From Herbaspirillum sp. Sphag64 (GTDB lineage: Bacteria > Pseudomonadota > Gammaproteobacteria > Burkholderiales > Burkholderiaceae_D), in NCBI RefSeq assembly GCF_014192645.1, contig NZ_JACHYE010000001.1, forward strand, positions 254,350 through 318,349: a DNA stretch of 64,000 bases. The letters are read 5' to 3'. Shown one piece after another: positions 3,570 through 49,760 of the stretch (position 1 is the first letter of the stretch; each line of letters begins with the position of its first letter). The position numbers were made by a program, and so were the translations under genes. The notes beneath the pieces are model-generated. The model saw nothing but the letters and a program-made list of their open reading frames with translations. It made no database searches and had not been told where the DNA came from.

Positions 3570-4472
3570 ATGCATCGAACAGGCATGACCGAATTGGAAG
3601 TGGTGCTGGCGGTAGCACGTCGCAAGAGTTTTCGCGGTGCGGCGCTCGAATTGGGTATGTCTACTACCGCCGTCAGTAGCGCTGTGGCTGGTCTCGAAGC
3701 ACGCTTGAAAGTACGCCTGTTCAACCGCTCGACGCGTAGCGTGGCCCTAACCGACATCGGCCAGCGCTATGTGGAACGCATCGCGCCCGCGCTGGCAGAA
3801 ATCAAGCGTGCCAGCGAAGAAGCTGGTAGTGGCCACGACGTGCCCAGCGGCACGCTACGCATCAATGCACCGCAAGGCGTGGGCACCTTGCTGATGGAGC
3901 CACTCTTACGCCAGTACGCACAGCGCTACCCGGAGATGCGCATCGACGTCGTGAGCGAATCGCGCTTGATCGATATCGTGGCCGAAGGCTTCGATGCCGG
4001 TATCCGTCTGGCCGAATCGGTACCGCAAGACATGATTGCGGTACCGCTCTCGCCCGATATCCGCATGCTCGTAGTCGCCACTCCCGACTATCTGCAACGC
4101 CACGGCACGCCCAGGCAGCCACACGATCTGCTCATGCATCAGAGCATCGGCATGCGCATGACGCATGGCGGCATCTATCAGTGGGAACTGGAGAGAGGCG
4201 GCCAAAAGCTGCAGATGGATCTGCCGACACGCTTCGTGCTCAATGAGATGCCCGCCATCAAACAAGCGATCCTGCATGGACTGGGCATCGGTTTCATCGC
4301 CGAGTGGCTTATTCTGGATGAGCTGAAAACAGGGAACCTCGTGCCCTTACTGCCATCCTGGTGCCCTACGTTTGGTGGTTTGCGGCTGTACTACTCCGGC
4401 CATCGTTTTGTCCCGGCACGGCTGCGCGCCCTGATCAGTCTGGTGCATGAACTGCGCTTGGGAAAAGCCTAG
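3570..4472 (+). CDS. LysR-family transcriptional regulator
   Basis: A 300-residue LysR regulator. The N-terminal winged helix-turn-helix covers about residues 1-65 (ELEVVLAVARRKSFRGAA, TTAVSSAVAGLEARL, LFNRSTRSVALTDIG), followed by a linker helix and a periplasmic-binding-like effector domain to the C-terminus. The ATG at 3570 is preceded by AGGA about 7 bases upstream; a second ATG lies five codons later, and the open frame extends upstream to 3264 without family similarity. It is divergent from the SDR gene, the usual arrangement of a LysR regulator and its target. The effector is unknown. Confidence 0.88.
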   Translation: MHRTGMTELEVVLAVARRKSFRGAALELGMSTTAVSSAVAGLEARLKVRLFNRSTRSVALTDIGQRYVERIAPALAEIKRASEEAGSGHDVPSGTLRINAPQGVGTLLMEPLLRQYAQRYPEMRIDVVSESRLIDIVAEGFDAGIRLAESVPQDMIAVPLSPDIRMLVVATPDYLQRHGTPRQPHDLLMHQSIGMRMTHGGIYQWELERGGQKLQMDLPTRFVLNEMPAIKQAILHGLGIGFIAEWLILDELKTGNLVPLLPSWCPTFGGLRLYYSGHRFVPARLRALISLVHELRLGKA

Positions 4473-4581
4473 CGACGATACGATGCACGTATATCCCCCG
4501 CCGGGACGAGACGTTCGCTGAATAAGGCAAGAATATGAGACCGCTGTAGCTGACCAGTAACGATCAACTAGGACGGATGCT

Positions 4582-5052
4582 TCAATCTGGCTCAATTAGG
4601 CGAAGCAACAGCGGGATAGCCTGAGCAATTGTTTCGCGCTCTTTCCCTGAAAGCTTTGCATGGATGGCCTGCGCTAGCCAAAGTGATCTGGCTTGGCGAT
4701 GCGCTGCGGCAGCGTGCCGCCCGGCATCAGTTAAAGTCATCAACCAACCACGTCCATCAGAGGGGTCTGGCTCACGTGCGACCAATCCAGCAGCCTCCAG
4801 CCGACTCACCACCAGCCGCATCGACTGATGGGTCACGCCGCGGATTTCAGCCAAGGCCGCAGCGCTCATCGGCCCGTTGCGATCCAGTTCCGCCAACGCG
4901 TCGACCTGTGCATCGTGAGGCGTCCCGCTGCGCGTCCGAACCGTTCGAACGAAGCGTCCAACTGCGTCGCGCAACTCCTCGGATAGCGTCGCTGAAAACG
5001 AATCGCCAGATGCATGTGTGGTGGTGGGGCTGAAAGTGAGTGCGGCACTCAT
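4582..5052 (-). CDS. MarR-family transcriptional regulator
   Basis: A 156-residue MarR-type winged-helix repressor. The DNA-binding part runs through MSAAALAEIRGVTHQSMRLVVSRLEAAGLVAREPDPSDGRGW, with the wing ending in the characteristic DGRG(W) turn and LTDAGR. Its ATG overlaps the stop of the upstream SnoaL-like gene (ATGA, 5049-5052), so the two are translationally coupled. The shared promoter contains an inverted repeat (5512-5530) that I take as the likely MarR operator, implying autorepression. The ligand is unknown. Confidence 0.87.
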   Translation of the reverse strand: MSAALTFSPTTTHASGDSFSATLSEELRDAVGRFVRTVRTRSGTPHDAQVDALAELDRNGPMSAAALAEIRGVTHQSMRLVVSRLEAAGLVAREPDPSDGRGWLMTLTDAGRHAAAAHRQARSLWLAQAIHAKLSGKERETIAQAIPLLLRLIEPD

Positions 5053-5462
5053 GAGAATCGCAACTGGGTTAGCACTGCCGCAAGTGTATTGACACCCCAG
5101 TGCTCGGCATAACGGCCATCCCGGATCGTGACGATGTCAATAACGTCGATACTGACCTGCCGTCCAGTAGCAGGAACTCCCAGCAAGGTGCCGGTATGCA
5201 CACCATGCACTGTTTTGCGCGTGGTCACTTTATCGCCGTCGCTGAGTTGCTCGTGGATCTGCACTTTCAGCCCTGAGAGCGCCGGTCGCAGCACGTGCTC
5301 AAACGTGTTCCACAGACCCGCACCATCGTTCGGTGCGCCGACTGGCGCGGACCAATTAACAAAGTCCGAGGCGACGAGTGCATCGAATGATGCACGATTA
5401 CCTTGCTCGATCACTTCATGGTTGAAGCGCTTTACGACCTGTTTGGGCGAGAATTTGTCCAT
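5049..5462 (-). CDS. SnoaL-like ester cyclase family protein
   Basis: A 137-residue protein of the NTF2-like/SnoaL fold: an N-terminal helix pair (VVKRFNHEVIEQGNRASFDALVASDFVNW), a middle helix (WNTFEHVLRPAL) and beta strands with DGDKVTTRKTVHGVHTGTLLGVPATGRQV and YAEHWGVN. Family members often accompany regulators as small detoxifying or cyclase-like enzymes; activity here is unknown. The ATG at 5462 has GGAG 8 bases upstream and is preferred over the longer frame to 5522, which runs into the promoter. It is the first gene of an operon with marR. Confidence 0.8.
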   Translation of the reverse strand: MDKFSPKQVVKRFNHEVIEQGNRASFDALVASDFVNWSAPVGAPNDGAGLWNTFEHVLRPALSGLKVQIHEQLSDGDKVTTRKTVHGVHTGTLLGVPATGRQVSIDVIDIVTIRDGRYAEHWGVNTLAAVLTQLRFS

Positions 5463-5507
5463 TTTTTCTCCGATCGGGCGGGCAACATAAGTCCACCAAC
5501 ATCGCAG

Positions 5508-5536
5508 ATTATATACAACCAAGCTGTATAAATAAA
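5508..5536 (-). promoter_or_regulatory. Promoter and candidate MarR operator of the snoaL-marR operon
   Basis: On the minus strand a perfect TATAAT (5508-5513) lies 17 bases from a weak -35, TTTATT (5531-5536). Between and overlapping them is a perfect inverted repeat, TATACA-N7-TGTATA (5512-5530). Its placement would block RNA polymerase, as expected of a MarR autorepressor. The leader to the first ATG would be about 40 bases. Confidence 0.65.
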
Positions 5537-5730
5537 GTGAGATATCCGTTTTCCGCTTTGATCTTCACAGACCAGTAGTGCCTTCAAAAGCGGTAACGAT
5601 TGATTAGCTTGACTTCCATCTCATTTGGAAGTGCGTTGCCTCGTAGTCTTCAAGGAATAATCATGAACAATCTGCACGACATCGGACTTGGAAAATTGAA
5701 TTTCCCAACCGGATTTATTTTCATTTTTAC

Positions 5731-6645
5731 TCAATGCAACGCCAGCGAGATATGCTCGACGAACGCCTTTACCTTGGCTGAATGTTTCCGCTCAGGGGGA
5801 CTCACCAGATGAATCGGTGATAACGGTGAGTCCCAGTCAGGCATGAGCCGCACCACTTCTCCATTTGCTAATTCGGGTTCGAATAACCAGGTAGGCGCAT
5901 AGCCAATACCCATTGCGCCAATAACCGCCGAACGTATCACCTCACTACTGTTTGTTTGAATACCTCCGTGAACCCGCACACTCTTAGTCACTCCCATTGT
6001 TTCCGATGCACCAGCACCGGCTGTGAAAGTCCATAGATTGCTATTGGCAAGTCCCGTGTAGACAATACACTGGTGCGCTGGTAAGTCTTCCGGATCGCGC
6101 GGCGCACGCACGTCGGCGGGGAGGTTTCGCAGATAGTCCCGATGGGCCAGCAGCATGCGCTGCGATACACCAACACGCCGCGCAATAAGCCCACTATCGG
6201 GCAAATCACCAATCCGAACCGACACATCAATACCCTGTTCCACCAAGTCGATGAAGCCGTCATGTAGACGCAGGTCAACCTTGACGTCGGGGTGCGCTTG
6301 CATGAACGACTTCACCAGCGGCATCAACTTCAAGCGCCCAAAACCGACCGAGGCGGCAACTCTGATCCATCCCCGTAATTGCCTCTCGCCTGTGATCAAA
6401 TCAGACTCGGCTTCAGCAATTTCGGCGACCAACCTTCGCGCCTGCTCGAAATAGCGCGCGCCCTCCTCGGTCAATGCCAGCGAGCGCGTCGTCCGAATCA
6501 GCAGCTTTGCCCCCAACTGTCGCTCCAGAGCAGCCACTTGCTTGCTGACGGCGCTCTGGGTGGTCTGCGACTCATCTGCCACAGCAGAAAAGCTGCCTGA
6601 CTCGACCACCCTCACAAATGTACGCATTGCAGAAAGCTTGTCCAT
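5731..6645 (-). CDS. LysR-family transcriptional regulator
   Basis: A 304-residue LysR protein with a clear N-terminal helix-turn-helix (MRTFVRVVESGSFSAVA, TTQSAVSKQVAALERQLG, LLIRTTRSLALTEEG) and an effector-binding domain from about residue 90. It resembles the CrgA/DsdC-like group often found beside oxidoreductases. The gene is divergent from the SDR gene starting at 6757, with 111 bases between, so it probably regulates the SDR and AhpD-like genes. The inducer is not predictable. Confidence 0.9.
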   Translation of the reverse strand: MDKLSAMRTFVRVVESGSFSAVADESQTTQSAVSKQVAALERQLGAKLLIRTTRSLALTEEGARYFEQARRLVAEIAEAESDLITGERQLRGWIRVAASVGFGRLKLMPLVKSFMQAHPDVKVDLRLHDGFIDLVEQGIDVSVRIGDLPDSGLIARRVGVSQRMLLAHRDYLRNLPADVRAPRDPEDLPAHQCIVYTGLANSNLWTFTAGAGASETMGVTKSVRVHGGIQTNSSEVIRSAVIGAMGIGYAPTWLFEPELANGEVVRLMPDWDSPLSPIHLVSPPERKHSAKVKAFVEHISLALH

Positions 6646-6676
6646 GGCTGCTCAATATATTCCATTAACGACTAAG

Positions 6677-6693
6677 TGATATCGCCAAAATCA
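6677..6693. promoter_or_regulatory. Inverted repeat between divergent lysR and SDR genes
   Basis: TGAT-N9-ATCA sits in the 111-base divergent intergenic region. The spacing is not the classical T-N11-A of LysR boxes, so it is a weak candidate operator. Confidence 0.3.
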
Positions 6694-6756
6694 GTCTATA
6701 CGAACATCAAGGAATAAGTCAAAGTGAAGGCCTCGATACATCAACCAGGAGCAGAC

Positions 6757-7506
6757 ATGAATCCATCAAACGTTCTCATCACCGGTGCTTTAACCGGAAT
6801 CGGCCGTGCAACCGCGTTCGCCTTTGCGCGAACTGGTGCCAACGTGGTCGTTAGCGGGCGCCGCGAAGAGGCCGGCACCGCATTGGCATCCGAACTTCGC
6901 GCATTGGGAGGCAAGGCTGAGTTCATCAAAGCCGACGTCACCGATGAAGCAGAGGTCCGTGCACTTGTCGAACAAACAGTCAGTTTGTTCGGCAAGCTTG
7001 ACATTGCCGTTAATAACGCTGGCACGGAAGGCACACTAGGCCCGATTACCGAACAAAGCACAGATAACTTCCATGCCACGTTCTCGACCAACGTGCTAGG
7101 CACCCTGCTGTCGCTCAAACACGAGATGCGTGCGATGCAAGCGCAGGGACACGGTTCCATCATCAACCTCTCATCCATTGCCGGGCAAGTCGGGTTCGCC
7201 GGGGCATCGGTCTACGTTGCTAGCAAATTCGCAGTCGAAGGATTGACCAAGAGCGCAGCGCTGGAAGGCGCTCAGTTCGGGGTACGTGTTAATGCCATCG
7301 CACCAGGTCCGGTGGCAACCAACATGCTGGACCGCTTTATTGGAAACGACGAAAGCGCCAAAGCAGGTTTTCTGGGAGGTATTCCTGCCAAACGCGCTGC
7401 CACGGTCGATGAAATTGCTAAAACCATCGTCTTCGTCGCGTCTACCAAAGCCGCTTACCTTACCGGCCAGTCGATTACGGTCGACGGTGGATACACAGCC
7501 CAATAA
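6757..7506 (+). CDS. Classical short-chain dehydrogenase/reductase
   Basis: A 249-residue classical SDR oxidoreductase. It has the cofactor motif GALTGIG at residues 10-16, NNAG at about 86-89, and the catalytic S140, Y153 and K157 (SVYVASK). The C-terminal VDGGYTAQ is typical. An Arg pair after beta-2 (SGRR) suggests NADP(H). The ATG at 6757 is preceded by AGGAG with 5-base spacing; a GTG at 6724 is a longer alternative without such support. It is followed 66 bases on by the AhpD-like gene and preceded by a divergent lysR. Substrate unknown. Confidence 0.9.
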   Translation: MNPSNVLITGALTGIGRATAFAFARTGANVVVSGRREEAGTALASELRALGGKAEFIKADVTDEAEVRALVEQTVSLFGKLDIAVNNAGTEGTLGPITEQSTDNFHATFSTNVLGTLLSLKHEMRAMQAQGHGSIINLSSIAGQVGFAGASVYVASKFAVEGLTKSAALEGAQFGVRVNAIAPGPVATNMLDRFIGNDESAKAGFLGGIPAKRAATVDEIAKTIVFVASTKAAYLTGQSITVDGGYTAQ

Positions 7507-7572
7507 AACAGCGCAATAGCCCAGCCCCATCAACCTGCGTTTTACTTTTTAGACTCCCCCCTGGAGATCACA

Positions 7573-8109
7573 ATGAGCACCATCAACGTTCCTACCCGCG
7601 AAGAAGTCAGCATCAACAATCAGGCCATTTTTGACAACCTCAAAAAAGGGCTTGGAATGGTTCCCAACCTCTACGCGACCTTTGCCCACTCTGACACCGC
7701 ACTGGCAACTTACCTGGCATTACAAAACGCCAAGAGCAGCATCTCAGGCAAAGCACGCGAGGTCGTCAATCTGGTTGTCAGTCAGGTCAATGAGTGCGAG
7801 TACTGCCTGGCGGCACACACCATGCTCGGGAAGATGAACGGCTTCAGCGAAGAGCAAATCCTCGATATCCGCCGCGGACAAGCCAGCTTTGACGTCAAGC
7901 TCGACGCCCTCGCCCGCTTGACCAAAGGCATCACGCAAAGCCGCGGCCATGTCGATCCAGTATTGGTCGAAGCATTCTTTGCTGCCGGCTGGACCAAAGA
8001 GAATCTGGTGGATGCCATCGTCGTCATCGGGGACAAGACCGTGAGCAACTACTTGCATTCAACCACCAGGATTCCAGTGGATTTTCCTGCTGCGCCAAAG
8101 CTGGATTAA
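7573..8109 (+). CDS. Carboxymuconolactone decarboxylase/AhpD-like peroxidase family protein
   Basis: A 178-residue protein of the AhpD-like/CMD fold. The redox motif CEYCLAAH gives C75-xx-C78-xxx-H82, the arrangement used by alkylhydroperoxidase D to reduce peroxides. The rest is helical, with VVIGDKTVSNYLHSTT near the C-terminus. GGAG about 8 bases upstream of the ATG supports the start. It lies downstream of the SDR and may be in its operon; such pairs are common in LysR-controlled stress or xenobiotic cassettes, but the specific substrate cannot be told. Confidence 0.85.
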   Translation: MSTINVPTREEVSINNQAIFDNLKKGLGMVPNLYATFAHSDTALATYLALQNAKSSISGKAREVVNLVVSQVNECEYCLAAHTMLGKMNGFSEEQILDIRRGQASFDVKLDALARLTKGITQSRGHVDPVLVEAFFAAGWTKENLVDAIVVIGDKTVSNYLHSTTRIPVDFPAAPKLD

Positions 8110-8189
8110 TTTGGAAGCCGGCTAAGCTTGCCACGACGGATGCAACTCTTCGGCATCGGCAGTCCATTTTGCTGTCGATGCCGAACCAC

Positions 8190-8217
8190 AACAAAAAGCC
8201 CGCGATAATGCGGGCTT
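8190..8217 (-). terminator. Rho-independent terminator after guaA
   Basis: AAGCCCGC (8196-8203) pairs with GCGGGCTT (8210-8217) around a 6-base loop. On the minus strand the stem is followed by a T-rich run, placed 48 bases after the guaA stop. It may also serve the convergent AhpD-like gene. Confidence 0.85.
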
Positions 8218-8264
8218 CAAGGTGATTGGATGCTTTCAGTTATCTGGCATTGCCGGACCCAAAA

Positions 8265-9845
8265 TCATTCCCACTCAATCGTCGCTGGCGGCTTGCCCGA
8301 GATGTCATACACCACCCGATTGATGCCTCGCACTTCATTGATGATGCGGTTGGAGACGCGGCCAAGTAATTCATGTGGCAGATGCGCCCAATGTGCAGTC
8401 ATGAAGTCCTGCGTTTGTACCGCACGCAAGGCCACTACGTATTCATAAGTGCGTCCATCTCCCATCACACCCACTGATTTGACCGGGAGGAATACCGCAA
8501 ATGCCTGGCTGGTCTTTTCGTACCAGCTCTGGCCATCTGCTTCCTTGGTGTTGCGCAGCTCTTCGATGAAGATCGCATCTGCGCGACGCAGCAAATCAGC
8601 GAACTCTTTTTTGACCTCACCCAGGATACGCACACCCAGACCCGGACCTGGGAATGGATGACGATAAACCATCTCGTGTGGCAGACCCAATGCGACACCC
8701 AATTCACGCACTTCATCCTTGAACAGCTCGCGCAACGGCTCCAGCAATTTCAGATTCAGCGTGTCAGGCAAGCCACCAACGTTGTGGTGGCTCTTGATAG
8801 TGTGAGCACCCTTCTTGCCTTTACCGGCGCTTTCGATCACATCCGGGTAAATCGTGCCTTGCGCCAGCCACTTGGCGCTCTTGAGCTTGCCAGATTCGGC
8901 CTGGAACACTTCGACAAATTCACGACCGATAATCTTACGCTTGGCTTCAGGATCAGTCACGCCGGCCAGATGCCCCATGAACTGGTCGGTGGCATCAACA
9001 TGAATCACCTTGACACCCAGATTCTTGCCAAACATCTCCATCACCATCTTGCCCTCATCCAAACGGAGCAAGCCGTGATCAACGAAAACACAGGTCAGCT
9101 GATCACCAATGGCGCGATGGATCAGGGCGGCAGCAACACTGCTGTCGACCCCACCGGACAAACCGAGAATCACTTCATCGGCGCCTACCTGGGCACGAAT
9201 GGCAGCGACCGCTTCGGCAATATAGTCAGGCATATTCCAGTCCGACTTACAGCCGCAGATATCCAGCACAAAACGACTCAGCAATGCCTTGCCTTGTACG
9301 GTATGGGTGACTTCAGGGTGGAATTGCACGGCATAGAAGCGACGTGCTTCGTCGGCCATACCGGCAATCGGGCAATTGCCGGTTGATGCCATCAGCTTGA
9401 AGCCGGGTGGCATGTCATTGACCTTGTCGCCATGGCTCATCCAGACCTTGAGCATGCCATGACCTTCAGCTGTGGTGAAGTCTGCAATATCCTTTAACAA
9501 GGCGGTGTGGCCATGCGCGCGTACTTCCGCGTAACCGAATTCGCGCAGCTTGCCGTTTTCGACCTTGCCACCCAACTGCGCTGCCATGGTTTGCATACCG
9601 TAGCAAATACCCAGTACCGGGACACCTAGCTCGAACACAGCTTGCGGTGCGCGTGGTGTATCGCCTTCGGTCACGCTATTCGGGCCACCAGACAGAATTA
9701 CGCCAGCGGCGCCGTAGTTACGAATGAATTCGTCACTCACGTCATAGGGATAAACCTCAGAGAACACGCCGGCTTCACGGACGCGACGTGCGATCAGTTG
9801 CGTGACCTGGGAACCGAAATCGATGATCAGAATTTTTGAATGCAT
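8265..9845 (-). CDS. guaA: GMP synthase (glutamine-hydrolysing)
   Basis: Cytosolic enzyme making GMP from XMP with glutamine and ATP. Domains in order: class-I glutamine amidotransferase (nucleophile C81 in GICYGMQ, later HPE), ATP-pyrophosphatase with the P-loop SGGVDSS near residue 230, and the GMP synthetase C-terminal dimerisation domain ending PATIEWE. Length is 526 residues, standard for the family. The ATG at 9845 ([13 protein letters not shown]) is preferred to an in-frame extension to 9863. It follows guaB on the same strand. Confidence 0.97.
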
Positions 9846-41705: not shown

Positions 41706-42194
41706 TTACAAAAAGCGATCCAAAATCTTCCGGCTATGCTTGTCCAGCGACTTGATATCCCGAATGATGAACTGAATTCCATGACTATCGGCGATCAGCA
41801 AAGCTGTCCCGGGCAGGCGACGAATATCTTCCTCCCCTTTGAGCGTAAACGATGTCTCTCCGCGGTTGGTATCCACCTCCCAGACGGTAGGCGTGGCAAA
41901 ACTGGACACCCGCCGGATACGGTTGATTTCCGGCATGAACTCGCGATTAGCCAACTCCCGCTCGATCACAGTACGAACTGTTGGCGAAACATCTGACCAT
42001 TGCTCGATCCACGCCAATTCAACTCCATCGGCACTCACCAACGCAATTCCCTCATCGGGCGCACCAATCGGGAAGGCACGCACTGGAATTGCGCCCTCAT
42101 GCACAACACCATCTTCGCCGATAAACACCAGACGACCAAAGTCGTTATACCGTAATTCAAAATACTGCATCACTGCTGTGCCCTCATCGGCCAT
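41706..42194 (-). CDS. DUF1854 protein associated with cyanophycin locus
   Basis: A 162-residue DUF1854 protein: YFELRYNDFGRLVFIGEDGVVHEGAIPVRAFPIGAPDEGIALVSADGVELAWIE, then NREFMPEINRIRRVSSFATPTVWEVDTNRGETSFTLKGEEDIRRLPGTALLIADSHGIQFIIRD. All-beta, soluble, function unknown. The family is known to travel with cyanophycin synthetases and the adjacent ABC transporter. The ATG at 42194 has GGAG 7 bases upstream, set inside the 3' end of the ABC gene; a GTG at 42200 overlaps the ABC stop. Coupled expression with the transporter is likely. Confidence 0.85.
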   Translation of the reverse strand: MADEGTAVMQYFELRYNDFGRLVFIGEDGVVHEGAIPVRAFPIGAPDEGIALVSADGVELAWIEQWSDVSPTVRTVIERELANREFMPEINRIRRVSSFATPTVWEVDTNRGETSFTLKGEEDIRRLPGTALLIADSHGIQFIIRDIKSLDKHSRKILDRFL

Positions 42195-42196
42195 GA

Positions 42197-44464
42197 TCAC
42201 TCTCCGTCCTCGTCGCTACCCTGCACTTCACCATCCGGGTTGCGTGCCTGCGCTTGATATAGACGGTAATACGCACCCTCTCGGGCCATCAATTCCTCAT
42301 GCGGTCCAACTTCCACAATCTGCCCGCGATCCAGCACCACCAATCGGTCCGCCTTGCGCAAGGTCGACAAACGGTGAGCAATCGCAATCGTGGTACGTCC
42401 CTTGACCAGATTATCGAGCGCCTTCTGAATTTCCTTTTCGGTGGTCGTATCGACCGAAGATGTTGCCTCATCCATAATCAGGAAGCGCGGATCGATCAAC
42501 AACGCGCGAGCAATTGATATACGCTGACGCTCGCCACCAGACAATGCCTGCCCGCGCTCACCGACAAGCGAGTCGTAGCCATGTGGCAGGCGCAAGATAA
42601 ACTCATGGGCATGCGCTGCACGCGCCGCCGCAATGATCTCGGCCCGGGTTGCCTCTGGTTTGCCGTAGGCGATGTTTTCTGCAATCGTGCCAAAGAACAG
42701 GAACGGCTCCTGCAGCACCAGACCGATATTGCGACGATAGTCAGCAATCGGCAAAGAGCGAATGTCTACACCGTCGATTCGAATACTACCTTCCGATACA
42801 TCGTAGAAACGGCAAATCAGATTGACCAGCGTGCTCTTGCCCGAACCACTATGTCCGACCAGACCAATCATCTCGCCCGGTGCAATCGACAGATCGACGC
42901 CACGCATCACCGAGCGGTTGCCGTAGCGGAAGCCGATATTGCGCAGCTCAATGGCCCCCTCAACACGCGCAAGATGTATCGGATTAGCAGGTTCAGGAAC
43001 GCTGGAGACGTGATCCAGAATATCGAAGATACGTTTGGCACCAGCCGCCGCCTTCTGGGTCACCGAGACAATACGGCTCATCGAATCCAGACGCGTGTAA
43101 AAACGACTGATATACGCCAGAAAAGCAGTCAGCACACCAACCGTAATCTGATTGTGCGACACCTGCCAGATTCCAAACACCCACACCACCAGCAAGCCCA
43201 CCTCAGTGAGCATGGTCACCGTCGGGGTAAACAATGACCAGATCTTGTTGACCCGGTCATTGACCTGCAAATTATGCTTGTTCGCCTCGCGGAAGCGCGC
43301 AGCCTCGCGTTTTTCCTGGGCAAATGCCTTGACCACACGAATACCAGGAATCGTATCCGCCAGTACATTGGTCACCTCAGACCAGATACGATCGATTTTC
43401 TCGAAGCCATGCCGCAGACGATCACGCACCGCATGAATCATCCAGGCAATGAAGGGCAATGGCAGCAACGTCACCAGTGCCAGCCAGGGATTGATTGAGA
43501 TCAGAATCGCCGCCGTCATGATGATCATCAGTACATCGATGATGAAATCAAGCAAATGCAGCGACAGGAACACACAGATGCGGTCCGACTCCGAACCGAT
43601 CCGCGCCATCAGATCACCCGTTCGCTTGCCACCAAAATACTCCTGTGACAACCGCAGCAAATGCTCATAAGTGGTCGTGCGCAAGTCAGCCCCAATACGC
43701 TCACTGACGAGCGCCAGAATAAAAGTCCGGCCCCAGCCCAGTACCCAGGCCAGCATCGCCGAACCCAGCAGCCCACTCAAATAGATACCCGCCAGATGAC
43801 TGTTGAGTGGCGCACCGTTCTGAAATGGGATCAACACATTGTCCATCAGTGGCATCGTCATGTAAGGCGGCACCAGCGTGGCTGCCGTCGATGCCAGCGT
43901 CAGCAGGAAGCCCAGCAACAACGATCCCTTGTAGGGACGCGCAAACCTTGTGAGCCGGAACAAGGCCCAGCTCGAGGAAGGTGCCTCCTTGGTCTCAGGG
44001 CAGATAGCACAGCCCTCCTGCCCGGCTGGAATCGGCGCCTGACATTGTGGGCACACCTGCTGTTCGACTTGCTGCACGGCCTGCCCCAACACCCGGGCAT
44101 CACGCTGCTGCTCGAAATGCGTGATCAACCGCAGCGCCTGCGGGTTCTGTGCCAGCGTATACCGCCATAAGGCCAGCCGCGCCTTGTCATCAAGCAACTC
44201 CAGGCTACCCACACCAGCGTGATCATGATGTTTCAACAACAAACCAGCACGTAACTCCCATGCCGACCAGCTACCCTGGCTACACGCCAGCAAACGCTTC
44301 TGTGTGACCACAACCACACTGCGCGCAAATTGCAGCGACTGGTCGAGATCGAGCTCAATCCAGCTAATCACGGTTTCATTGGCGACCAGTTGCAGTTGCA
44401 CCTGCTCCTGCCAGAGGGCAGGCAAATTAGTTGTACTCGAGGAAATGGGAAATTCTCTATTCAT
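42197..44464 (-). CDS. ABC exporter with N-terminal PH-like region and zinc ribbon (cyanophycin-associated)
   Basis: A 755-residue half-transporter. Residues about 20-120 are a soluble region with VVVVTQKRLLA, W/ELR and LALWRYT elements that resembles a bacterial PH-like domain (inference). A zinc ribbon follows (C138, C141, C152, C155: CxxC-x10-CxxC). Then a six-helix type-IV exporter membrane domain (about 180-470) and an ABC ATPase with Walker A K543 (GHSGSGKST), signature LSGGERQRISIARALL, Walker B FLIMDEAT and a switch His. It is in an operon with the DUF1854 gene and divergent from the cphA pair. Substrate unknown. Confidence 0.88.
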   Translation of the reverse strand: MNREFPISSSTTNLPALWQEQVQLQLVANETVISWIELDLDQSLQFARSVVVVTQKRLLACSQGSWSAWELRAGLLLKHHDHAGVGSLELLDDKARLALWRYTLAQNPQALRLITHFEQQRDARVLGQAVQQVEQQVCPQCQAPIPAGQEGCAICPETKEAPSSSWALFRLTRFARPYKGSLLLGFLLTLASTAATLVPPYMTMPLMDNVLIPFQNGAPLNSHLAGIYLSGLLGSAMLAWVLGWGRTFILALVSERIGADLRTTTYEHLLRLSQEYFGGKRTGDLMARIGSESDRICVFLSLHLLDFIIDVLMIIMTAAILISINPWLALVTLLPLPFIAWMIHAVRDRLRHGFEKIDRIWSEVTNVLADTIPGIRVVKAFAQEKREAARFREANKHNLQVNDRVNKIWSLFTPTVTMLTEVGLLVVWVFGIWQVSHNQITVGVLTAFLAYISRFYTRLDSMSRIVSVTQKAAAGAKRIFDILDHVSSVPEPANPIHLARVEGAIELRNIGFRYGNRSVMRGVDLSIAPGEMIGLVGHSGSGKSTLVNLICRFYDVSEGSIRIDGVDIRSLPIADYRRNIGLVLQEPFLFFGTIAENIAYGKPEATRAEIIAAARAAHAHEFILRLPHGYDSLVGERGQALSGGERQRISIARALLIDPRFLIMDEATSSVDTTTEKEIQKALDNLVKGRTTIAIAHRLSTLRKADRLVVLDRGQIVEVGPHEELMAREGAYYRLYQAQARNPDGEVQGSDEDGE

Positions 44465-44911: not shown

Positions 44912-47110
44912 ATGAAAAATATAGAATTTCTCCGTATCCTGCCTTTGCACGGCCCGAACATCTGGACCTACCGGCCTGCTCTGGAAGTCTGGATCGACAT
45001 CGGGGAACTGGAAGACTTTCCTTCCAACGTGATTCCTGGCTTTAATGAGCGCCTCACCAGCTGGCTGCCCTCTCTGGTTGAACATCGCTGCAGCTACGGC
45101 GAGCGCGGCGGATTCTTGCAACGTTTGCAAGAAGGTACCTGGCCTGGCCATATTATGGAACACGTCACCCTTGAGCTGCAAAACCTGGCTGGATTGCCAG
45201 GCGGGTTCGGCAAGGCGCGCGAAACCTCAGTACGCGGCGTCTACAAGGTGGTTGTGCGTGCCCGCCATGAGCAAGTCACCCGCGCCGCTTTACACGCTGG
45301 TCGTGATTTGGTCATGGCCGCCATTGAAGATCGCCCGTTTGATGTCGACGCCGTGGTCAGCAAATTGCGCGACATGGTCGACTCCCTATGTCTCGGCCCC
45401 AGCACCGCTTGCATCGTTGATGCCGCCGACGAACGCCGCATTCCCTCGATTCGATTGTCCGAAGGCAATCTGGTCCAATTGGGCCATGGCATCAAGCAAC
45501 GGCGCATCTGGACTGCCGAAACCGACCGCACCAGCGCGATCGCAGAAAGCATTTCACGCGACAAGGATCTCACCAAGACCTTGCTGGAATCCTGCGGCGT
45601 GCCAATCCCCGAAGGCCGCGTCGTCGATAGTCCGACCGATGCTTGGGAGGCCGCTGAAGATATCGGCCTGCCAGTGGTCGTCAAACCGTCCGATGCCAAT
45701 CACGGTCGGGGTGTCTTTATCGACCTCAGCACCCGCGCCGAAGTAGAAACCGCTTATGCCGCAGCCCTCGAAGAAGGCAGTAGCGTGCTGGTAGAACGTT
45801 TCATTCGCGGCAACGAACATCGCCTGCTGATCGTCGGTGGCAAACTGGCCGCCTGCGCCCGCGGCGAACCAATCTTCATCGTTGGTGACGGCAAATCCAC
45901 CATATCTCAGCTCATTGATGTTCTCAACACCGATCCCCGTCGTGGCGATCTGGAAGAACATCTGTTGAACCCGATCATTTTGGAGCGTGATCCAGCGGCG
46001 CGTCTGGAGCTGGATCGTCAGGGCCTGACCGAAGCATCCGTCCCCGCCAGTGGCAAGAAAATCCTGCTGCTGCGCAATGGCAATGTCGCCATTGACGTTA
46101 CCGATCAAGTCCATCCGAGCGTCGCCGCCGTTGCCGCACTGGCCGCGCGCGTCGTTGGACTAGACATCGCCGGTGTCGATCTGGTGGCGGAAGACATTTC
46201 CAAGCCACTCGAGCAACAACGCGGCGCCATTGTCGAAGTCAATGCCGGCCCCGGTCTGCTGATGCATCTCAAACCCTCCGAAGGCAAACCCCGTCCGGTC
46301 GGTGAAGCGATTGTGAATCACCTGTTCCAGCCGGAAGACACCGGTCGTATCCCGATTGTCGGCATCACCGGCACGCACGGCAAAACGACTATCGCCAGAC
46401 TGGTCGCGCGCATCATCCATCTCAGCGGCAAGCATGTCGGTCTCGCTTGTGGCGATGGCTTGTATTTTGGACAACGGCAAGTGGAAAAAGGCAATCGTGC
46501 CAACTGGGCAGCCGCCCGTCGCGTGCTGCTCAACCGCGCCGTAGAAGCTGCGGTGTTTGAGAACGGCAGCGTCTCCATTCTCTCCGAAGGGCTCGCCTAC
46601 GACCGTTGCCAGGTCGGTGTGGTCGCCAATATTGACCCAGCAGATCGGCTCCCGGAGTATTACATCGACGATGCCGAGCAAATGGCCACCAAGGTCAAGC
46701 GCACCCAGGTGGATGTCGTCCTGCCAGACGGCGTCGCTGTCCTCAACGCCGACGATCCGCTAGTTGCCGACATGGCCAGCCTGTGCGACGGTGAAGTCAT
46801 TTTCTTCTCCAATGATGCCAGCGCGCCAGTCATGGCAGCGCACCTCAAGGATGGCAAGCGCGGCGTGTTTGTCCGTGACGGCAAGGTCATTCAGGCCACC
46901 GGCAACAGCGAAGTGCGCGTCAGCGATGTCGCCGCGATCCCGCTGACCGGCGGTGGTGCCGTAGCATTCCAGATCGACAATGTGCTGGCTGCCGTTGCCG
47001 CAGCTTGGGCACTCGGCATTACCGCCGATCTGATCCGTGCCGGGATTGAATTGTTTGGTACCGAGCAGGCAGAAGAGCAAGACAAAAAGCGCAAGGCACA
47101 GACCCCCTGA
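44912..47110 (+). CDS. cphA': Cyanophycin synthetase-like protein CphA' (truncated Mur domain)
   Basis: A 732-residue CphA paralogue. N domain with an HxxEH motif (H80, E83, H84 in GHIMEHVTLELQ), an ATP-grasp domain (K258 in VVVKPSDANHGRGV; EVNAGPGL at 442-448), and a Mur-ligase-like domain with P-loop GITGTHGKTT (484-493). The Mur domain is degenerate: the motif that reads ETARGGVLREG in the neighbour reads ENGSVSILSEG here (550-560), and the protein stops about residue 720 before the C-terminal lobe, ending in a charged tail. It is probably a helper or primer-generating enzyme. No Shine-Dalgarno is obvious at the ATG. Confidence 0.88.
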   Translation: MKNIEFLRILPLHGPNIWTYRPALEVWIDIGELEDFPSNVIPGFNERLTSWLPSLVEHRCSYGERGGFLQRLQEGTWPGHIMEHVTLELQNLAGLPGGFGKARETSVRGVYKVVVRARHEQVTRAALHAGRDLVMAAIEDRPFDVDAVVSKLRDMVDSLCLGPSTACIVDAADERRIPSIRLSEGNLVQLGHGIKQRRIWTAETDRTSAIAESISRDKDLTKTLLESCGVPIPEGRVVDSPTDAWEAAEDIGLPVVVKPSDANHGRGVFIDLSTRAEVETAYAAALEEGSSVLVERFIRGNEHRLLIVGGKLAACARGEPIFIVGDGKSTISQLIDVLNTDPRRGDLEEHLLNPIILERDPAARLELDRQGLTEASVPASGKKILLLRNGNVAIDVTDQVHPSVAAVAALAARVVGLDIAGVDLVAEDISKPLEQQRGAIVEVNAGPGLLMHLKPSEGKPRPVGEAIVNHLFQPEDTGRIPIVGITGTHGKTTIARLVARIIHLSGKHVGLACGDGLYFGQRQVEKGNRANWAAARRVLLNRAVEAAVFENGSVSILSEGLAYDRCQVGVVANIDPADRLPEYYIDDAEQMATKVKRTQVDVVLPDGVAVLNADDPLVADMASLCDGEVIFFSNDASAPVMAAHLKDGKRGVFVRDGKVIQATGNSEVRVSDVAAIPLTGGGAVAFQIDNVLAAVAAAWALGITADLIRAGIELFGTEQAEEQDKKRKAQTP

Positions 47111-47189
47111 GCACATGCACAGGCCCATTTGCTAACCAAATTTGATCACCGGCCAGCTTGGCACCGGACCTAATCAGGAAGAATTGTTG

Positions 47190-49760
47190 ATGGACGTATC
47201 TCGTATTCGCGTACTGCGCGGCCCCAATCTGTGGAGCAGACACACCGCCATTGAGGCCATCGTCTCCTGCACCGAGACAGAATGCGCTATTGAAGGACTC
47301 CCAGGGTTTGAGGTCCGTCTGCGTGCGCGCTTCCCGCACATCGGCTCGCTGCATCCCGCCGGCGCCGCCAAGGCCATCTCCATGGCCCATGCACTGGAAG
47401 CCGCGGCACTCGCCCTACAGTCGCAGGCTGGCTGCCCGGTGACCTTTAGCCGCACCGTACCTACCATCGAAACCGGTGTCTATCAGGTCATCGTCGAATA
47501 CAGCGAAGAAAGCGTCGGCCGCCTCGCCTTCGAACTGGCACAACAACTGTGTCTGGCTGCGGTGGAAGACACGCCATTTGACCTGGCCGATGCCTTGAAG
47601 CGTCTGCGCGACGAAGACGAAGACATCCGTCTCGGACCCAGCACCGGCTCAATCGTTACCGCCGCGCTCAAACGCGGCATTCCGTTCCGCCGCCTGACGC
47701 AAGGCAGCATGGTGCAGTTTGGCTGGGGTAGCCGTCAAAAGCGCATTCAAGCCGCTGAAACCAGCGCCACCAGTGCCATTGCCGAATCCATTGCACAAGA
47801 CAAAGAACTGACCAAGATGCTGCTGCACGCCGCCGGCGTGCCCGTGCCAATTGGCCGTGTGGTGGAAACGGCAGAAGACGCCTGGGCCGCCGCGCAGGAA
47901 ATCGCGGCACCGGTCGTCATCAAGCCGCGTGATGGTAATCAAGGCAAGGGTGTGGCCGTCAATATCAGCACCAAAGAGCAAATTACTGCCGCCTTCAATG
48001 CTGCAGTCCGTATCAGTGACGAAATCATCGTCGAGCGTTACCTGCCCGGCCACGACTATCGCCTTCTGGTGATCGGTAAGAATCTGGTTGCCGCTGCCCG
48101 CCGCGATCCGCCACAAGTCATCGGCGACGGCGTGCACACCATTCGCCAACTGGTCGACAAGGTCAATAGCGACCCCCTGCGTGGCGATGGCCATGCGACT
48201 TCGCTGACCAAGATCCGCTTCGACGATATCGCGCTGGCCACGCTGTCCAAGCAAAATTTCGATGCCGAATCGATCCCGCCGCAAGGCGCGCGCGTGGTCT
48301 TGCGTAACAACGCCAACCTGAGCACTGGCGGCACCGCCACTGACGTGACCGATGATGTCCACCCAGAGCTGGCCGCCCGTGCCGTAGCAGCAGCGCAGAT
48401 GGTCGGACTCGATATCTGTGGTGTCGACATCGTCTGCAACAGCGTACACAAGCCGCTTGAAGAGCAAGAAGGCGGCATCGTCGAAGTCAATGCAGCACCT
48501 GGTCTACGCATGCACCTGTCCCCTTCGTACGGCAAGGGTCGTGCTGTCGGTGAAGCCATTATCAACACCATGTTCGAAGATGGTGATGATGGTCGTATCC
48601 CGGTGGTCGCGGTGGCAGGCACTAACGGTAAAACCACCACTGTGCGCCTGATTACGCATCTGCTGGCGCAACAAGGATTACGCGTCGGTATGACCAATAC
48701 TGACGGCGTTTATATCGACAAACAGCGTATCGATACCGGTGACTGCAGCGGCCCACGGAGCGCCCGCAATGTGCTGTTCCATCCAGACGTCGATGCTGCC
48801 GTACTGGAGACCGCGCGTGGTGGCGTGCTGCGCGAAGGCCTCGGCTTTGACCGCTGCAATGTTGCCGTCGTCACCAATATCGGCATGGGCGATCATCTGG
48901 GTCTGAGCTACATCAGCACCGTGGAAGATCTGGCAGTGGTCAAACGCGTGATTGTAGAAAACGTCGCCCCCACCGGCTACGCCGTCCTCAACGCGGCTGA
49001 CCCGATGGTCTCGAACATGGCGCAAAGCTGCCCCGGTGAAGTAATCTTCTTTGCACTGGATCCACTGCACCCGATCATGGCCACCCATCGCGCCCAAGGC
49101 CGCCGTGTGGTCTACCGTGATGGCAACGACATCGTCGCTGCCCAAGGCGCGCAGGAAGTGCGTCTGGCGCTCAAGGATATTCCCCTGACCCGCAATGGCG
49201 GCATTGGCTTCCAGGTGGAAAACACCATGGCCTCAGTGGCCGCCGTATGGGCATTGAATCAGGATTGGGATGTGGTGCGCGCCGGTTTGCGCAGCTTCAT
49301 CAGCGATGTCGGTACTGCACCGGGTCGCTTCAACCTGTTTGACTATCGCGGCGCGACCCTGATCGCAGACTATGGCCACAATCCGGATGCAATCAATGCT
49401 CTAGTGAAGGCCGTGGAGAGTATTCCAGCCAAGCGGCGCTCGGTGGTCATCAGCGGCGCTGGCGACCGCCGTGATATCGACATCCGTCAACAAACGGAAA
49501 TCCTCGGCGATGCCTTTGATCAGGTCATTCTGTATCAGGATCAATGCCAGCGTGGCCGTGCCGATGGCGAGGTATTGGGGTTATTGCGCGCCGGCCTGGA
49601 AAATGCCAGCCGGACCAAGGAAACCAAGGAAATCTATGGTGAGTTTCTGGCCATCGATACCGCTTTGGCGTCCTTGGCAGAAGGCGATCTGTGTCTGATT
49701 CTGATTGATCAGGTAGAAGAGGCGCTGGCACATATTGCCAAGCGGGTCGCGGAAGGCTGA
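47190..49760 (+). CDS. cphA: Cyanophycin synthetase CphA
   Basis: An 856-residue enzyme polymerising multi-L-arginyl-poly-L-aspartate, a nitrogen/carbon storage polymer. N domain (1-160), ATP-grasp domain adding Asp (VVIKPRDGNQGKGV, EVNAAPGL), and complete Mur-ligase-like domain adding Arg: P-loop GTNGKTT (477-483), ETARGGVLREG (540-550) and C-terminal lobe PGRFNLFDY...DYGHNPDA (711-734). The N-domain HxxEH is lost (HALEA, 67-71). The ATG at 47190 has AGGAAG upstream. Follows cphA' by 79 bases; no cyanophycinase gene is in the window. Confidence 0.95.
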   Translation: MDVSRIRVLRGPNLWSRHTAIEAIVSCTETECAIEGLPGFEVRLRARFPHIGSLHPAGAAKAISMAHALEAAALALQSQAGCPVTFSRTVPTIETGVYQVIVEYSEESVGRLAFELAQQLCLAAVEDTPFDLADALKRLRDEDEDIRLGPSTGSIVTAALKRGIPFRRLTQGSMVQFGWGSRQKRIQAAETSATSAIAESIAQDKELTKMLLHAAGVPVPIGRVVETAEDAWAAAQEIAAPVVIKPRDGNQGKGVAVNISTKEQITAAFNAAVRISDEIIVERYLPGHDYRLLVIGKNLVAAARRDPPQVIGDGVHTIRQLVDKVNSDPLRGDGHATSLTKIRFDDIALATLSKQNFDAESIPPQGARVVLRNNANLSTGGTATDVTDDVHPELAARAVAAAQMVGLDICGVDIVCNSVHKPLEEQEGGIVEVNAAPGLRMHLSPSYGKGRAVGEAIINTMFEDGDDGRIPVVAVAGTNGKTTTVRLITHLLAQQGLRVGMTNTDGVYIDKQRIDTGDCSGPRSARNVLFHPDVDAAVLETARGGVLREGLGFDRCNVAVVTNIGMGDHLGLSYISTVEDLAVVKRVIVENVAPTGYAVLNAADPMVSNMAQSCPGEVIFFALDPLHPIMATHRAQGRRVVYRDGNDIVAAQGAQEVRLALKDIPLTRNGGIGFQVENTMASVAAVWALNQDWDVVRAGLRSFISDVGTAPGRFNLFDYRGATLIADYGHNPDAINALVKAVESIPAKRRSVVISGAGDRRDIDIRQQTEILGDAFDQVILYQDQCQRGRADGEVLGLLRAGLENASRTKETKEIYGEFLAIDTALASLAEGDLCLILIDQVEEALAHIAKRVAEG

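Follow-up and report, generated by a model that had tools for sequence, protein, structure and literature searches.

The window, a 64,000-nt stretch of DNA from a 4.6-Mb genome, carries two co-oriented cyanophycin synthetase genes, cphA' and cphA, separated by 79 nt and flanked by divergent genes for an ABC transporter and a DUF1854 protein (Table 1), both members of families whose NCBIfam names are tied to cyanophycin. The start of cphA was placed at the ATG at 47190, the mechanically called open reading frame beginning at an in-frame TTG at 47142. Both products score above the cut-off (877) of the cyanophycin synthetase profile NF010623 (CphA' 1108.7, CphA 1262.3), whereas for TIGR02068 (cut-off 850) CphA lies above (992.7) and CphA' below (798.9). 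In Pfam, CphA' matches PF18921 and Mur_ligase_M and lacks Mur_ligase_C, which CphA has; the N-domain match is strong in CphA' and only partial in CphA. CphA' thus ends before the Mur C-terminal lobe, as the first-pass annotation of this DNA had stated. An AlphaFold model of CphA' was of moderate quality (pLDDT 74, pTM 0.44, 18 sequences) and served solely to show which parts fold confidently and what the nearest fold is, namely CphA1; identity to the primer-independent SuCphA1 is 42% when the model is aligned by Foldseek. The nearest named relatives of this CphA' belong to Herbaspirillum. Searches against solved structures returned no cphA'-cphA pair, and a plasmid search returned 23 records, every one below 60% identity and with one place each.

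Table 1. Coordinates in the window of the cphA'-cphA pair, its active-site features and its divergent neighbours (Su, SuCphA1 numbering).
Feature	Coordinates	Strand	Remark
Cyanophycin metabolism-associated DUF1854 protein (NF052234)	41706..42200	-	relative within fetched flank in 174/198 loci
Divergent cyanophycin metabolism-associated ABC transporter (NF052233)	42197..44464	-	relative near pair in 189/198 loci
cphA'	44912..47110	+	732-aa CphA1 paralogue; peptidase motif intact, aspartate pocket incomplete, M core altered, without M lid
CphA' N-domain zinc-peptidase motif H58. C60 ... H80 x x E83 H84 (Su H57 C59 H79 E82 H83)	45083..45163	+	alignment to SuCphA1
CphA' G-domain P-loop His264 (Su H267), kept	45701..45703	+	H in 193/199 distinct CphA'
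CphA' shortened G-omega loop LLRNGNVAI, S396-T-G-G aspartate-binding loop deleted	46064..46090	+	gap at S396 in 199/199 distinct CphA'
CphA' altered Mur motif ENGSVSILSEG (ETARGGVLREG in CphA)	46559..46591	+	Su R561 in 0/200 CphA', ETARGG in 0/200
CphA' R597 and D601 (Su S603, E607), M-domain residues at N-domain peptidase groove	46700..46714	+	invariant in 197/197 distinct CphA'
cphA	47190..49760	+	full-length N-G-M synthetase with degenerate N domain
CphA N-domain remnant HALEA replacing HxxEH; Cys position deleted	47388..47402	+	alignment
CphA Gln at Su H267, G-domain P-loop	47940..47942	+	Q in 193/198 distinct CphA rows
CphA aspartate pocket (Su R323, N394, S396, R458)	48102..48509	+	RNSR in 200/200 pair CphAs
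CphA Mur site (Su K499, R561, D585/H586, K602; lid R731, H748)	48630..49379	+	7/7 scored core sites in 199/200 CphAs

Tandem arrangements of cphA are already known, some of them accompanied by an ABC transporter and lacking cphB. Group 1 cphA clusters from activated sludge hold two cphA copies and an ABC transporter without cphB and, in the section that describes them, are treated as copies, with a composite transposon suggested and the active sites left uncompared; two neighbouring, evenly expressed cphA copies are also described there for Accumulibacter MAGs, which may not be of the cphA'/cphA type (PMC10687191).

Comparative data were drawn from a search of the order, in which 148 of 399 genomes and 64 of 164 genera gave matches, and a search of the class, in which 20 of 370 genomes did. 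Both searches scored two candidates per genome and missed third copies; more than two matches were present in 7 of the 16 genomes searched individually. The 120 loci fetched (117 from order-search genomes and three from f82 genomes of the class search) include 118 with both genes, the other two (L102, L170) reaching a contig edge with CphA' only. Together with the window, the best 80 of 406 named loci and L015, a cut second copy of L179, these 118 make up 200 pairs, among which some named contigs may duplicate other genomes. In L096, CphA is broken over two frames and was scored by one piece. The set of 197 distinct CphA' leaves out L015 and L179, that of 198 distinct CphA rows includes L218 and both pieces of L096, the trees leave out L096 and L015, and the identity table (116 loci) and N-site alignment leave out L015, L179 and L096; genome G577 is left out of the single-gene motif counts. 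Residue numbering follows SuCphA1 and TeCphA1. The order cphA' then cphA is found in 199 of 199 pairs, with a median gap of 46 nt to the aligned CphA start and a gap below 200 nt in 196 of the 199.

In 2022, CphA1 was reported to carry a hydrolytic site opposing the two synthetic sites of the same chain (PMC9262961). As described there for SuCphA1, the N domain holds Zn through C59, H79 and H83, with E82 as the base, and an E82Q variant is inactive without primer; the site is slow, cuts chains preferentially into 4-mers and not dipeptides, and binds polymer that also contacts S603 and E607 of the M domain, and the full N motif is given as present in 83% of non-redundant CphA1s (PMC9262961). 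The first-pass annotation had read H80/E83/H84 in CphA' and HALEA in place of HxxEH in CphA, and these readings are correct at their positions; CphA' also has H58 and C60, the latter being the zinc-ligand Cys of Cx19HxxEH, which that annotation had not listed, and in CphA the Cys position is deleted as well. The complete motif (HCHEH at 57, 59, 79, 82 and 83) is found in CphA' alone in 199 of the 200 pairs, the exception being L015, which is cut inside the gene and whose longer copy, L179, has the motif; none of the 200 pair CphAs has it in full. All 197 distinct CphA' carry HCHEH, as do all 75 clusters of CphA' at 80% identity; 73 of these clusters have a scored partner, and in none does the CphA show the motif. 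Nine residues (H57, C59, F67, R70, H79, E82, H83, E87 and Y110) are invariant throughout the 197, all of which therefore show the combination that marks the N-domain endo-cyanophycinase of CphA1, Cx19HxxEH with H57, F67 and R70.

Conversely, a complete arginine-adding M site is present in CphA in 199 of 200 pairs and in CphA' in none. In the window, as previously annotated, CphA' reads FENGSVSILSEG at the position where CphA reads LETARGGVLREG. All seven scored Mur sites (499, 500, 558, 561, 585, 586 and 602) occur in 199 of 200 CphAs, bearing out the earlier description of an intact Mur-ligase domain; the exception is the frame-broken L096, and R561 is found in 197 of the 198 distinct CphA rows. 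Every one of the 200 CphA' retains at most five of the seven sites, R561 in no case and E558 still in 194. The M lid, deletion of which is reported to lower TeCphA1 activity, is absent from 140 CphA', partial in one and present in 59. The reciprocity of HxxEH and the Mur motif that the first-pass annotation had proposed to look for in adjacent pairs is thus seen in 199 of 200, beyond chance.

Conservation differs by domain in the same sense. Among the orthologues of the 116 loci, M-core identity is 0.472 in CphA' and 0.683 in CphA, and that of the G-omega region 0.551 and 0.704; the N domain stands at 0.637 and 0.598. In the M core, 17 of 236 columns reach 95% identity or more in CphA' and 79 of 236 do so in CphA. 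While the M catalytic residues of CphA' have mostly decayed, the polymer-contact positions 603 and 607 are invariant: only seven of the 236 M-core columns are fully so in CphA', among them 603 (Arg) and 607 (Asp), and the probability that both would fall among the seven is 0.0008, a figure that ignores relatedness. Reciprocal conservation of the sites, adjacency of the genes and invariance of the groove residues are features of the pairs as a whole, and the reciprocal split is a family rule across pairs, not one genome's quirk.

The aspartate-adding G site also differs between the partners, in ways that the first-pass annotation had missed. In TeCphA1, the substrate Asp is described as lying beside S396 and held by N394, R323 (beta-carboxylate) and R458 (alpha-carboxylate), with H267 and R309 positioned to stabilise the acyl phosphate and K220, K261, D431 and E450 binding ATP and Mg (PMC9427784). 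In the window, CphA has R323, N394, S396 and R458 and Gln in place of H267; CphA' keeps H267 and N394 and has lost R323, the S396 loop and R458. These three residues are lost in all 200 CphA', with N394 kept in 191, and the ATP-grasp set K220/K261/R309/D431/E450 is complete in 200 of 200 CphAs and 196 of 200 CphA', the exceptions being L165, L168, L179 and its copy L015.

From these comparisons we read the pair, with a probability of roughly three in four, as a subfunctionalised cyanophycin synthetase in which CphA' would be a dedicated endo-cyanophycinase that makes primers and CphA the polymerase. CphA would extend the chain, its G domain adding Asp at the C-terminus and its M domain adding Arg on the side chain, and, with its N-domain peptidase lost, should depend on primers. 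CphA' would no longer build; its N-domain zinc site would cleave the polymer to give short primers, and its inactive M core would be kept to form one side of the peptidase groove and, probably, an assembly surface (in the TeCphA1 tetramer, the M core is reported to contact the N domain and three G cores; PMC9427784). The two proteins probably act in trans, perhaps within one hetero-oligomer. Of the division of labour suggested in the first pass, the part in which CphA' makes primers and CphA polymerises is supported by the reciprocity in 200 pairs, the invariance of the groove and published trans-complementation; the part that made CphA' an Asp ligase is disfavoured, since R323, S396 and R458 are absent from 200 of 200 CphA', and dipeptide ligation by CphA' may still occur, since the ATP-grasp core is conserved in 196 of 200.

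Three known systems frame this reading. SuCphA1 has the same three-domain architecture, with its three sites in one chain; here they are divided, CphA' sharing Cx19HxxEH and CphA the Asp pocket and Mur site. The primer-dependent TmCphA1 of Tatumella, as described, has none of the four N-motif residues, and CphA is predicted to be primer-dependent because its N motif is likewise missing; TmCphA1, however, has been examined by itself and retains H267 (7lgn alignment), whereas CphA stands in tandem with CphA' and has Gln at 267. TmCphA1 reportedly becomes primer-independent when a SuCphA1 with inactive G and M domains, or the SuCphA1 N domain by itself, is supplied in trans (PMC9262961), and by analogy the CphA'-CphA pair resembles a naturally occurring form of this experiment. 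PMC9262961 does not use the terms 'two CphA1', 'copies' or 'tandem', and among the listed titles and abstract openings of the open literature, subscription papers being outside the scope, no report of a reciprocal split was found. The third system is CphA2, the cyanobacterial beta-Asp-Arg polymerase with a single active site. The M domain of CphA2 is reduced, as in most CphA'. CphA2 is, however, described without the N motif that CphA' has, and for this reason CphA' was not classed as a CphA2; identity of CphA2 to the CphA' model in structure alignments is 20-22%.

Retention of the ATP-grasp core, superfluous for a pure peptidase, is one of the points that stand against a simple split, together with motif-less CphAs outside the tandem, the H267Q exchange in CphA and the reported lack of cyanophycin from the Cupriavidus necator genes (below). 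CphA' might also be a live ligase, its ATP-grasp core activating the chain end for attachment of a substrate other than Asp, for instance beta-Asp-Arg dipeptides, as in CphA2, or chain fragments. Besides the intact K220, K261, R309, D431 and E450, this reading has in its favour a constraint on the G core and lid equal to that of CphA (identities 0.704 and 0.715 in the 116 loci; in both proteins, 93 of the 251 columns reach 95% identity or more) and a change at R323, the residue that binds the beta-carboxylate of Asp: Gly stands there in 191 of 199 distinct CphA', with N394 mostly kept. It sits less well with the additional loss of the alpha-carboxylate ligand R458 and of the S396 loop, the aligned spans of two solved CphA2 chains being without net shortening. 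Moreover, the G site of CphA' has decayed in three f82 genomes (E450A and H267L in L168; H267R and a changed loop in L174; several changes in L179) in which HCHEH is kept, in line with the split. We consider a live ligase possible but rather unlikely.

Cyanophycinase distribution bears on another reading, in which CphA' would be mainly the cell's depolymerase, replacing a missing cyanophycinase, with priming secondary. The window genome has no cyanophycinase (TIGR02069) above the cut-off, the only listed match being an 11.5-bit one on contig C12, away from this locus, and it holds one IaaA-type asparaginase. Among the 399 genomes, cyanophycinase exceeds the cut-off in 26. These are all nine with a single gene, 12 of about 138 with a pair and five without a cphA match; the figure of about 138 was reached by subtracting from 148 the nine single-gene genomes and G741, whose gene has decayed, and it counts pairs truncated by a contig end as well as unfetched pair genomes. 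The difference between single-gene and pair genomes is marked (Fisher's test, 4e-9), with the single-gene genomes coming from two genera only, and in the 12 pair genomes the cyanophycinase and the pair are either on different contigs or 179 kb or more apart. Against a depolymerase, the SuCphA1 N domain is reported to be slow and to yield about 4-mers instead of dipeptides; besides the narrow origin of the single-gene genomes, cyanophycinases that escape recognition may exist. This role for CphA' seems to us conceivable, if on the whole improbable. As a primer-making endo-cyanophycinase, CphA' would in any case be a candidate route of turnover in bacteria without a recognised cyanophycinase.

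The neighbouring genes lend themselves to a more speculative reading, which we regard as decidedly doubtful: the tandem might serve a cut-and-rejoin, possibly cut-and-export, pathway instead of storage, in which CphA extends chains, CphA' cleaves them and then religates or caps them, its ATP-grasp site being live and its acceptor pocket reshaped, and the ABC transporter and DUF1854 protein handle short, soluble oligopeptides of the cyanophycin type. If true, this would explain both the usual absence of cyanophycinase and the reported failure to find cyanophycin from the C. necator genes.

CphA' of C. necator H16 reportedly lacks most of the J-loop, and we know of no N-site split reported in work on the cphA/cphA' genes of this strain. 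According to papers citing that work (Adames 2013; Fuser and Steinbuchel 2007), these are two homologues or neighbouring copies. Two reviews report that wild-type R. eutropha (C. necator) H16 contains no detectable cyanophycin and that expression of its cphA genes yielded none (PMC11362209; PMC8560796), so the product of the pairs may differ. The proposed split between a primer-making CphA' and a polymerising CphA offers a direct test for this reported lack of cyanophycin from the two C. necator genes. With the hydrolytic site in a separate gene, in pairs across dozens of genera, the peptidase should be tunable, removable and assayable apart from the synthase.

That CphA' might be a catalytically dead structural or regulatory subunit is suggested by its loss of a complete Mur site and Asp pocket, and by M-core residues ~601-710, which are still predicted to fold confidently in the model. 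The invariance of the nine peptidase-site residues from H57 to Y110 in 197 of 197 CphA', whose dead sites drift, makes this very unlikely.

Finally, a full split, with peptidase and Asp ligation in CphA' and Arg ligation alone in CphA, would suit the distribution of residue 267 (His in 193 of 199 distinct CphA', Gln in 193 of 198 distinct CphA rows) but is scarcely credible, for the complete Asp pocket sits in CphA and not in CphA', Gln267 is found in 85 of 120 complete single-gene relatives (best 120 of 8000), and in L172, L182 and L179 neither partner has His267. H267A is reported to inactivate the G domain of SuCphA1 (PMC9262961), the Ala mutant being described as inactive or weak in both SuCphA1 and TeCphA1. 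A loss of Asp ligation in CphA owing to H267Q was nevertheless rejected, given the pocket intact in 200 of 200 and the frequency of Gln267 in otherwise complete relatives; Gln267 in CphA is better seen as a tolerated state, since Gln is common in complete relatives with planctomycete and magnetococcal names. In two of the f82 loci L168, L174 and L179, the partner CphA has His267 rather than Gln.

That group of planctomycete- or magnetococcal-named relatives also bears on ancestry. Among its best 120 of 8000 proteins, all 120 have the N motif, Asp pocket and Mur site, residue 267 being Gln in 85, His in 34 and Lys in one; an ancestor with all three sites is likely on this account. In trees with 58 pairs sampled, CphA' (support 1.0) and CphA (0.93) are each monophyletic and form one clade with this group (1.0). 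Which of the two is sister to the group varies with the choice of columns: CphA' when all are included (0.89), CphA when the tree is restricted to the G domain (1.0), the G-only tree being weaker (CphA clade 0.78, joint clade 0.59). In one locus of the group, L218, on a contig that stops within the gene, a neighbour is related to the ABC transporter of the pairs.

The first-pass annotation had held that the proposal would fail if CphAs without HxxEH were common in the absence of a CphA' partner. Among the fetched Burkholderiales loci they are not common: the N motif is present in 26 of 27 singles (26 single-gene loci and SuCphA1), and the exceptions are the single L028 and the published TmCphA1, plus nine CphAs outside the tandem in genomes that also hold a cphA'-cphA pair. 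Eight of the nine occur two each in the cyanophycinase loci of G421, G614, G640 and G709, and the ninth, with HSREH, in G730. The second loci of the former four genomes (L337-L340) combine a cyanophycinase with two CphAs that have Gln267 and intact G and M sites.

Several further arrangements were observed. In G741, a one-contig genome of 1.7 Mb, CphA is in pieces, several with stops (G741:C1:36925-38376; L303, L305-L307), and there is one weaker match to the CphA' query. L343 holds two overlapping CphA-like open frames of 816 and 836 aa (3756-8676, + strand) with ATP-grasp residues intact and Mur site and Asp pocket altered, possibly a different ligase pair. In L344-L347, a separate stop-to-stop open reading frame of 579-720 aa with a complete Mur-type site and no N or G sites adjoins a single cphA1.
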